Source: a virus
Virus record (IMG/VR): IMGVR_UViG_3300028384_000673
Coordinates: 47,560 to 111,559 of that record
DNA: 64,000 bases
Direction: 5' to 3' (one strand)
This document shows positions 43,146-46,254 of this stretch, one piece after another. The first letter of the stretch is position 1. Every line of letters begins with the position of its first letter. The notes beneath the pieces are model-generated. The model saw nothing but the letters and a program-made list of their open reading frames with translations, made no database searches and had not been told where the DNA came from. Both the position numbers and the translations under genes were made by a program.

Positions 43146-44747
43146 ATGAGCGGAACTGCTACTTATAATCAGGCAACACGTATCATTGACGTGGCAGCGA
43201 ATGGTCTTCCCACTCCTGTCACCAGTGGTACGTTTCCTAATGCCGACAATACCAATCAGGTAACCGAGCAAGATTTTGATCATGACTTTTATTATAGAGG
43301 TGGTACATTTGGTACTACCAGAACATTTGATGACAATACATTCTCCCAGGCTGGATTCTTAATTCAGATTCCTTTGTCTGTTGCAGATAACACTTTACTT
43401 GGGTCTTCTATCCAAGTTGGTGATCGTATTCTTTTTGTATTTGACTCTGGAACTGCTAACGAAAGAAAACAAGTATTCATTTATAAAGGAACTGAGCAGA
43501 CTGCAACTGCTGGTGAGTTCTGGCGTGCAACTGATCAATACCTAGAATTAGTTGTTGATTATTCACGAGAACATAGTGGAACATATGATTATTTTGATCA
43601 AAGAAATGCTAGAAACGCTACACCACTAGGTGCAGTTGGTATTGCTGCTAACGGTGTAGTCTTCTTTAATCCTTCTGCTGGATCTGGCGGCAACCCTCCT
43701 ACCAGTTTTACTTGGTTGGCACCGTTTGCTGATGCTCACGATCCTGTTGATTTTGGTGAAGATAACTGTGGTGGATATCCAGAGATTACTGGACAGTATC
43801 ATTACCATACCAGTGACTTTTTGGGTTGTTGGACAAATGATGCTGTTATGGCAACTTATAATGATTACTTTGGTTCCTCTCAGTTCAATGGAGACAATCT
43901 AAGGCATCCAGACGGGCACTCAAAGGTGTTGGGGATTGCTTTTGATGGTTTCCCCATCTACGGACCTTATTTGTATAGTGACCCTTGGAGTAATGCCAGT
44001 AATATAGGTCGTGCAACTTCTTCATACAGAATCAAATCTGAGGAGACTGCCAATAGACCAGACTACGGAACTACTGCTCAGAATCCTCCTGCTGGATCTT
44101 TGATGCAGGACTGGGAATATAGTGAATCACTTGGGAATATGGATTCCCATAACGGTAGGTTCTGTGTTACACCAGAATATCCTGATGGCACTTATGCATA
44201 CTTTCTCACCACGACCGTAGATAGTGAGCAGAATCTAGTTCCTGCTTTCCCATATATTATTGGGTTAACTGCCAGAGAAACGTTCGATCAACCTGCTAAT
44301 AATGGTGCCAGAGCACCACAGACTGATAGTGGTGATGGTGGTGGTGGTAATGTTGCACCTGCAACTATTCAGATCACTGCACAACCACAGAATGCTTCTG
44401 TCAACTCTGGAAACAGTGTCACCTTCTCGGTTACTTCTACCATTATTCCAGAAGACGGGGCTAAGTCTTATCAGTGGTATAGATCCACTGACGGTGGTTT
44501 CTCGTTTGCAGTTCTTACTGGTGCAACCAGCGCCAGTTACACCTTTACCGCTCTAAGTTACATGACGGGATATAAGTTCCGTTGTGAAATTAGAGGACCT
44601 ATTGGTGATACTGCTGCAACAAACTCTCCTCTGGAAACTGAGATTGCAACCCTCACCGTAACTGGATTCTCTGGTGGAACCGCAGAGAATTTCGACTCCA
44701 CCAATGTGAAACTTGACAGCACAACTGTCCGTTTTGATGCAACATAA
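43146..44747 (+). CDS. YHYH-domain and Ig-like virion protein (533 aa)
   Basis: This 533-residue protein contains the literal motif YHYH in GQYHYHTSDFLGCW (about residue 218) and the rest of the YHYH family core: GIAFDGFPIYGPY, SSYRIKSE and FCVTPEYPDGTYAYF. After a Gly-rich linker (about 397-403), residues about 407-505 form an Ig-like domain (ITAQPQNASVNSGNSVTFSV, SYQWYRS). The last residues carry two short FDST/LDST repeats. The giant protein has the same YHYH core and an Ig-like C-terminus, so the two genes share modules. It is probably a fibre or adhesin decoration. It has its own late promoter. Confidence 0.75.
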   Translation: MSGTATYNQATRIIDVAANGLPTPVTSGTFPNADNTNQVTEQDFDHDFYYRGGTFGTTRTFDDNTFSQAGFLIQIPLSVADNTLLGSSIQVGDRILFVFDSGTANERKQVFIYKGTEQTATAGEFWRATDQYLELVVDYSREHSGTYDYFDQRNARNATPLGAVGIAANGVVFFNPSAGSGGNPPTSFTWLAPFADAHDPVDFGEDNCGGYPEITGQYHYHTSDFLGCWTNDAVMATYNDYFGSSQFNGDNLRHPDGHSKVLGIAFDGFPIYGPYLYSDPWSNASNIGRATSSYRIKSEETANRPDYGTTAQNPPAGSLMQDWEYSESLGNMDSHNGRFCVTPEYPDGTYAYFLTTTVDSEQNLVPAFPYIIGLTARETFDQPANNGARAPQTDSGDGGGGNVAPATIQITAQPQNASVNSGNSVTFSVTSTIIPEDGAKSYQWYRSTDGGFSFAVLTGATSASYTFTALSYMTGYKFRCEIRGPIGDTAATNSPLETEIATLTVTGFSGGTAENFDSTNVKLDSTTVRFDAT

Positions 44748-44772: not shown

Positions 44773-46254
44773 ATGGCAAAACAAGGTATTGGTATTGGTT
44801 CTTCGGCGAATGACGGCACTGGCGATACTCTTCGTGATGGTGCTATCAAAGTCAACGCCAACTTTGACGAACTGTACGACAAGCTTGGCGACCAAACTAA
44901 TATCCTGTTTGATGTTGCTTCTGCTACTGAGGGACAGGTTCTCAAATGGAGTGCTTCACCCTCTGGTGCGTTCAGAGCAGGTAACTTCGATCTGCTTACT
45001 GGCAACTTAGACACCAACGGTAACGACATCGTATCTGATGGTACTGATGATATCGTCATCCATCAAACTGGTACTGGTGATATCAAATTGTGGGGTGGTG
45101 GATCTGGTTCTGCATACACCTATATTGATGGTGATGATGGATACCTCAAATGGTATGCACCATATGCTGAACTCGTAGATCTTCCCGATGCAAGCAATCA
45201 TCATGGTATGTTTGCTCATGTCCATGGCACTGGAAAAGGATATGTTGCTCACAATGCTCAGTGGATCCCTCTGGTAGATGAAACCCAAAGCATTTCTGTT
45301 CTTTCTGATGTAGACACCACAGTAAATGGTGGACCTTCTGATGGTCAGGTTCTGAAATGGGTTGCTGCTAATAGCAAATGGGAACCTGCCAACGATGAGC
45401 AAGGAACTGGTGGTGAAGGTGGCACCACACAGAATCTTTTCGAGACTGTTAATGCCGATACTGGTACTACTACTGCTTCTGCTGCTAATGATACCCTCAT
45501 TATTGCAGGCGGCACTAACATCTCCACTACTCTTAGTGGTGATACTCTTACTATTGATATGACAGGCACCTTGGGTGACCTGAACCAGAATGTATTCACT
45601 ACCCTCGGTGCTGACAATGGCACTACTACTGCAACTACGACTACTGACAGTCTGACATTCACTGGTGGAACTGGTATTACTACCAACCTGAATGCTGGTG
45701 CTATTACTATCACTAACGATTCACCAAACGTAGTTCAAAATGTCCTCCAAAGTCTTGCAGGAGACACTGGTTCGTATACTGCTAACGCCGCTGATTCTTC
45801 TGTCACGATTGCTGGTGGCACTGGGATCACTACTGCGGTATCTGGGTCAACGCTTACTATTACTAACACTGTCGCTTTACCCAGTATCAACGAAGGACAG
45901 TCCCTCATTCGGGGAGCATCTGCATATGAAGGAGTAGCATCTCCTACTCTGAGTTATGACTTCACTGCTGCTGACAGCAGTAACTACACAGTTAATGGTC
46001 CTGGTATTAGTAGTGCAACAGATCCTACAATCTATGTGTATCGTGGATTCACATACAGATTCAACAATGAAACTGGCGCATCCCACCCACTAGAAATTAG
46101 AGTTTCTAATGGTGGTGCTCAGATTAGTGGAACCTCAGGTTCTATCACTGGTGTCCAGTATTGGACAGTCCCACAGAGTCTTGCTGCTGGCACAACATAT
46201 GTGTATCAGTGCAACATTCACTCGTCTATGGTCGGCAATATCGTAGTGGTCTAA
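44773..46254 (+). CDS. Tail-fibre-like protein with C-terminal cupredoxin domain (493 aa)
   Basis: This 493-residue protein's first 40 residues (IGSSANDGTGDTLRDGAIKV, then NANFDELYDKL) are a familiar T4-like fibre or baseplate attachment sequence. Residues about 215-390 are Thr/Gly-rich beta repeats with GGTGITT units. Residues about 418-493 look like a cupredoxin: YVYRGFTYRFNN, SHPLEI with His438, then YQCNIHSSMVG with Cys480, His483 and Met486. His, Cys, His and Met are the four type-1 copper ligands of plastocyanin-like proteins. Whether copper is bound is unknown; the fold could also serve as an adhesin. It has its own late promoter and overlaps the next gene by one base. Confidence 0.75.
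   Translation: MAKQGIGIGSSANDGTGDTLRDGAIKVNANFDELYDKLGDQTNILFDVASATEGQVLKWSASPSGAFRAGNFDLLTGNLDTNGNDIVSDGTDDIVIHQTGTGDIKLWGGGSGSAYTYIDGDDGYLKWYAPYAELVDLPDASNHHGMFAHVHGTGKGYVAHNAQWIPLVDETQSISVLSDVDTTVNGGPSDGQVLKWVAANSKWEPANDEQGTGGEGGTTQNLFETVNADTGTTTASAANDTLIIAGGTNISTTLSGDTLTIDMTGTLGDLNQNVFTTLGADNGTTTATTTTDSLTFTGGTGITTNLNAGAITITNDSPNVVQNVLQSLAGDTGSYTANAADSSVTIAGGTGITTAVSGSTLTITNTVALPSINEGQSLIRGASAYEGVASPTLSYDFTAADSSNYTVNGPGISSATDPTIYVYRGFTYRFNNETGASHPLEIRVSNGGAQISGTSGSITGVQYWTVPQSLAAGTTYVYQCNIHSSMVGNIVVV

Follow-up and report, generated by a model that had tools for sequence, protein, structure and literature searches.

The window analysed here is a stretch of 64,000 nucleotides taken from a virus record that is 111,559 bases long and whose nearest isolate is Synechococcus phage S-WAM1. 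An open reading frame at 44773-46254 encodes a protein of 493 amino acids that is covered over its whole length by the profile phrog_677 (baseplate wedge tail fiber protein connector, E=4.5e-144), and that matches Pfam PF07880, T4_gp9_10_N, over residues 3-58 (E=3.4e-10). By these two profile matches the product is a gp9-type connector between the baseplate wedge and the tail fibre, and not, as a sequence-only reading of the locus had worded it, a fibre protein. In S-WAM1, the genes follow each other in the order baseplate wedge initiator, structural protein, gp9-type gene, hypothetical protein, gp8 and tail fibre connector. The gene and the parts of its product are:

44773-46254, plus strand: gene for a gp9-type baseplate wedge / tail-fibre connector, a 493 aa ORF (phrog_677 and PF07880 matches)
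44779-44946, plus strand: T4 gp9/gp10-like N-terminal segment, residues 3-58 (Pfam PF07880)
45430-45867, plus strand: three Ser/Thr/Gly-rich repeats that start with QNLF, QNVF and QNVL, residues 220-365 (seen in the translation)
45940-46251, plus strand: C-terminal cupredoxin domain, residues 390-493 (AlphaFold2, VIA-align, profile A2)
46084-46086, plus strand: His438, predicted copper ligand 1 (same residue in 66/66 rows of A2; aligns with a His of amicyanin)
46210-46212, plus strand: Cys480, predicted copper ligand 2, the thiolate (66/66 A2 rows)
46219-46221, plus strand: His483, predicted copper ligand 3 (66/66 A2 rows)
46228-46230, plus strand: Met486, predicted axial copper ligand (66/66 A2 rows)

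According to the translation of the ORF, the protein terminates ...GASHPLEIRVSNGG...TYVYQCNIHSSMVGNIVVV. In T4, the N-terminal part of gp9 and gp10 attaches to the baseplate. The repeats at residues 220-365 probably form an intertwined stalk, which would be trimeric by analogy with T4 gp9. The model of the full-length protein has a mean pLDDT of 53.6 and is usable for the C-terminal domain only; the stalk repeats have low confidence in this monomer model, which is to be expected if the oligomer is intertwined. The adjoining virion protein, encoded at 43146-44747, bears a Pfam YHYH domain (PF14240, 8.8e-35), to which no function is assigned, and residues 1436-1558 encoded by the giant ORF at 22550-43123 resemble the YHYH gene of relatives.

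The sequence-only reading had proposed that a cupredoxin with a complete set of type-1 copper ligands lies at the end of the 44773 gene. His438, Cys480, His483 and Met486 are indeed present there, at these positions by codon count, and the domain was correctly located at the C-terminus, but it comprises about 104 residues (45940-46251) instead of the about 76 proposed. The alignment A2, made of 65 of 73 representatives plus the window, has six invariant columns (G36, H49, Y89, C91, H94 and M97 in domain numbering), an invariance limited to these 66 chosen rows, since three of the eight rows omitted, one each of the loci L225, L204 and L214, are without the full quartet. Four of the six columns (H49, C91, H94 and M97) are the ligands, at identities to the window down to 20%. 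Across 200 distinct domain matches drawn from 247 loci and the window, 190 contain the full His-Cys-His-Met quartet, a census that is partly circular because the models used to retrieve the relatives themselves reward the ligands. Absence of these residues in homologs had been named as an outcome that would speak against the copper site; instead, the great majority retain all four. The remaining ten domains are five fragments that lack some columns, four ligand-less domains (two each in L204 and L225, as tandem copies) and one domain in which Tyr replaces the first His (L214). Among the 190 domains with all ligands, 184 are spaced C-x2-H-x2-M, five C-x4-H-x2-M and one C-x2-H-x3-M. The ligand set described as plastocyanin-type is thus complete as a type-1 set, as judged by fold, profile and conservation, but its spacing is the amicyanin-like CX2HX2M.

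The motif by itself is not beyond chance: H-x30-60-C-x2-H-x2-4-M is present in one of the 121 ORFs of the window (stop-to-stop, at least 100 codons), and residue shuffles of the same ORFs gave at least one match in 51 of 200 cases. What places the domain beyond chance is the conservation of the ligands in combination with a confidently predicted fold and with the type-1 copper proteins that the family profile retrieves. Structure prediction had been suggested as a check, and the predicted fold agrees with the proposal of a cupredoxin. The AlphaFold2 model of the C-terminal domain obtained with A2 has a pLDDT of 96.6 and a pTM of 0.88, and its top VIA-align match is 2dv6, the N-terminal cupredoxin domain of the Hyphomicrobium copper nitrite reductase (Z 10.9, rmsd 2.3, 93 of 104 residues aligned), followed by rusticyanin rows (Z 8.3-9.6, rmsd 2.4, 87-91 residues aligned). 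A Z below 8 can mean merely a shared arrangement, and the 2dv6 and rusticyanin rows exceed this value; 36 of 999 chains reach a Z of at least 8, and Foldseek returned 13 chains at E<=0.001. The Foldseek and VIA-align matches also include laccases, multicopper oxidases and factor VIII, and the absence of a family from these lists does not exclude it. The model is a Greek-key beta-sandwich, the arrangement that defines the cupredoxin fold, in which His49 follows the strand 38-43, Cys91 ends the strand 86-91, and His94 and Met97 are located in the next loop, positions compatible with ligands that would converge on one site.

Searches with the window domain as a single sequence found no relative in the PDB (best E 1.5), and Pfam PF00127, Copper-bind, did not match it at E<=1. 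An alignment of 26 relatives found amicyanin in the PDB at E=0.011, and the 66-row profile A2 found amicyanin first, at 1.4e-7, with nitrite reductase, plastocyanin and rusticyanin next. All of the best 60 of the 109 distinct PDB sequences found with A2 at E<=1 are type-1 copper proteins, and Copper-bind is matched by 39 of the 66 A2 members at E<=0.1 (best 9.8e-5). HMMER aligns the domain such that its His, Cys, His and Met are in register with the corresponding residues of amicyanin, in the canonical order of type-1 ligands, and the amicyanin His aligned with His438 is a copper ligand. As far as the motif is concerned, the shuffled ORFs would allow that an unrelated beta-sandwich in a fibre protein resembles a cupredoxin by accident; profile, fold and conservation refute this for practical purposes, and its probability is negligible. 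That the C-terminal domain of the 44773-46254 protein has a cupredoxin fold is, in our opinion, nearly certain.

The exceptions to ligand conservation are relevant to the question of whether the site is occupied. Some of the tandem cupredoxin-like copies at L225 (4321-4989) and L204 (4294-4947) have lost all or most ligands, and lie beside copies that keep them. The PSS2 copy in L270 is also ligand-less, and these three loci imply that some proteins use the fold without a metal. In the distant copies of L285 and L287, Gln is found in place of the axial Met, an arrangement like that of stellacyanin-type sites. It is conceivable that the virion copy is a metal-free adhesin that retains the four residues because they pack or form hydrogen bonds: the ligand-less paralogues of L204 and L225 remain recognisable members of the family, and phages assemble in the cytosol, which contains little copper. 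However, it is precisely Cys, two His and Met that are invariant down to 20% identity, a set that packing rarely needs, and we consider this explanation unlikely. The same cytosol is replete with zinc, which His2Cys sites also bind, so that zinc, or copper only as Cu(I), might act as a structural clamp; the axial Met and the matches to type-1 copper proteins favour copper, and make this a very unlikely alternative. We regard it as likely that the predicted metal binding is kept under selection, and, on balance, we expect that copper would be carried in the virion.

The domain is not confined to the window. At E<=1e-3 it matches 313 of 50,697 phage records, all of which are named Synechococcus, Prochlorococcus, Cyanophage or Marine, and at the relaxed threshold of E<=10 it matches 342; phrog_677 itself ends with the domain (profile positions 303-409 of 412, E=6.1e-39). 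A scan of 18 whole phage records with A2 (E<=0.01) gave matches in 12 of them and none in P-SSP7, S-PM2, Pelagibacter phage HTVC008M, T4, S-CRM01 and Syn5. The results for S-PM2, S-CRM01 and HTVC008M indicate that related phages manage without the domain. The virus record of the window has a single match, the one in 44773-46254. P-SSM2 has five, two of them in the spike and the others in the neighbouring tail fibre protein, in the tail fibre-like PSSM2_028 and in PetE, and P-HM2 has three, one of which is in gp7; further copies are present in the Bellamy tail fibre and the S-SKS1 wedge subunit. In BFVD, too, the best structural matches are cyanophage tail proteins; two are gp9 proteins, and among the others are the proximal subunit of a long tail fibre and a putative proximal fibre, with names such as 'Long tail fiber proximal subunit' (S-SCSM1) and 'Putative T4-like proximal tail fiber' (P-SSM2). 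Giant-virus 'beta-sandwich proteins' (Pithovirus LCPAC304/302, Marseillevirus LCMAC201/202) also resemble the predicted fold in BFVD. A scan of 12 phage records with the gp9 profile A3 found no whole gp9 of the window's type and partial matches in four of the 12, which suggests that in S-PM2 and others the role of gp9 is taken by a more distant protein.

This distribution bears on the view that the site is a redox or light sensor, in which the copper, by cycling between Cu(II) and Cu(I) or by absorbing visible light, would control adsorption or the deployment of the fibres in the vicinity of a photosynthesising host. Such a sensor would explain the light-dependent adsorption of some cyanomyoviruses, and an axial Met with an amicyanin-like loop is typical of electron-transfer copper sites. 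As described in PMC7112961, P-HM2 is unable to adsorb in darkness, while P-SSP7 can infect without light. The domain matches follow this contrast, with three in P-HM2 and none in P-SSP7, but these are two phages only, from different families. Moreover, the adsorption of S-PM2 is reportedly light-dependent (Jia 2010), and the lack of a domain match in this phage weakens the idea. Considering that no redox partner is evident and that light dependence has alternative, host-based explanations, we give the sensor a rather low probability, and we do not adopt light-dependent adsorption as the function of the domain, suggestive as the contrast between P-HM2 and P-SSP7 is. The broader proposal that the blue-copper state on the cyanomyovirus tail follows light, oxygen or host electron flow and gates attachment or fibre deployment, such that the virion would be an environmental sensor, is a long shot.

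The sequence-only reading had also considered derivation from host plastocyanin-like proteins. Descent from the plastocyanin of a host or a phage is contradicted by the spacing of the ligand loop, by the profile scores and by the tree. The loop of PetE is Cys-x2-His-x4-Met and that of the window domain C-x2-H-x2-M; the free PetE proteins of P-SSM2 and S-SCSM2R score 3.7e-4 and 3.3e-4, respectively, against the family profile; and in a tree of 83 rows, built on few columns, the PetE plastocyanins are on a long branch of 3.43 changes per site. As far as can be judged from sequence, the domain is no recent derivative of plastocyanin. In the same tree of few columns, the gp9 copies nest among copies of phage tail proteins, which indicates that the module has probably moved among tail genes. 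One of the relatives, S-SCSM2R_202 (L068, 5800-6306), is annotated as PetE but is actually a tail-located virion cupredoxin copy with a stalk-like N-terminus, and the same phage, S-SCSM2R, has another PetE, SSCSM2R_1; copies of this kind may lead automatic annotation to overcount plastocyanin auxiliary genes.

As to cellular genomes, A2 has matches at E<=1e-6 in seven of 148 sampled genomes of the phylum of a Nonlabens assembly and in five of 97 sampled genomes of the phylum of an archaeal MAG, one match in each phylum being a phage-like contig. From inspection of their sequences, several of the cellular relatives appear to be exported and to carry CHRD-like or fasciclin-like repeats. The close matches on genome contigs, L248, L249, L250 and L251, come from the Nonlabens xiamenensis assembly and from marine MAGs (TMED113, TMED129). 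We rejected a bacterial origin for them because all four loci are syntenic with the cyanophage baseplate genes of the window, which makes them phage contigs within bacterial or archaeal assemblies, probably as contamination or as co-binned virus. A link in cells between the YHYH neighbour and cupredoxins was discarded as well: among the 148 genomes of the single phylum sampled for it, 14 have YHYH at E<=1e-5, and only the Nonlabens assembly has both, on a phage-like contig.

The explanation that we prefer is that a cupredoxin with an intact, amicyanin-spaced set of type-1 ligands caps the C-terminus of a gp9-type stalk on the baseplate wedge. Each subunit would bind one copper ion, loaded either inside the cell or from seawater following lysis, and the metal would lock the loop end of the beta-sandwich, giving the module a rigid surface for docking or adhesion where baseplate and fibre join. 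T4 gp9 is trimeric, with six trimers per baseplate, and the trimer joins the baseplate wedge and the long fibre; a trimeric stalk present six times per baseplate would hold up to 18 coppers per virion. In P-SSM2, the module is located near the N-terminus of a protein whose annotation reads proximal tail fibre or spike, that is, on the opposite side of the junction, which supports a docking or adhesion role. A metal-locked docking surface would explain both the presence of the module on either side of one joint and the conservation of its ligands. The docking or adhesion role as such, which we propose by analogy with T4 gp9 and from annotation names, is tentative, and we give the whole explanation, a copper-locked cupredoxin module for docking or adhesion at this junction, about an even chance.

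The metal could also have a different purpose, with the virion displaying copper to a copper- or metal-uptake protein on the host surface, as a 'Trojan horse', or scavenging copper from seawater as a buffer. Type-1 sites bind copper very tightly, but the ion is buried and exchanges slowly, which makes for poor display, and no host receptor is evident. There is an analogy in the iron hypothesis for tail fibres: iron in the tip of T4 gp37 and HxH motifs in the fibres of marine phages have been described (PMC11705849). We nevertheless assign a low probability to this possibility.

Based on current knowledge, cupredoxins and gp9 are familiar, and what is apparently new is an intact predicted metal site in a phage baseplate protein. 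The sequence-only reading had called a copper protein on a cyanophage virion unexpected. This does not hold for the domain, which is widespread in tail proteins of cyanomyoviruses; it does hold for the literature, as our search of open-access papers found none that describes a cupredoxin in a phage virion protein. The near-universal retention of the four ligands suggests that the virions carry copper at the site of contact with their hosts. Should copper be bound, the virions of many marine cyanophages have a metal centre at the end that contacts the host, a counterpart of the iron sites in T4-type fibres, with a bearing on trace-metal cycling and on the light or redox dependence of adsorption. 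There is also a consequence for annotation, in that cupredoxin domains of virions can be mistaken for plastocyanin auxiliary metabolic genes.

Compared with known systems, the 44773-46254 protein shares with T4 gp9 the T4_gp9_10_N N-terminal segment and the place among the baseplate genes, but differs in its C-terminal domain, which is a cupredoxin on a repeat stalk; the T4 genome has no match to the cupredoxin profile A2. The auxiliary metabolic gene product PetE, a free plastocyanin already known from cyanophages (PMC3037559), belongs to the same superfamily as the window domain and is found in some of the same phages; it differs in being a free protein with a signal-like N-terminus and the loop Cys-x2-His-x4-Met. 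Of the exported bacterial cupredoxins, the closest, a protein from a Bacteroidota sample (E=6.9e-28), shares HP-[FL] ... C-x2-H-x2-M with the window domain; however, these bacterial proteins are cellular, have lipoprotein-like or signal-like N-termini and are not joined to gp9. Amicyanin and the type-1 (blue) copper proteins have in common with the window domain the fold and the order and spacing of His and Cys-x2-His-x2-Met. Unlike amicyanin, the window domain is fused to a phage baseplate protein, has Pro instead of Asn after the first His ligand, and as a single sequence resembles amicyanin below the level of detection; yet both have the closing strand Y-x-Y-x-C-x-x-H-x-x-M-x-G.
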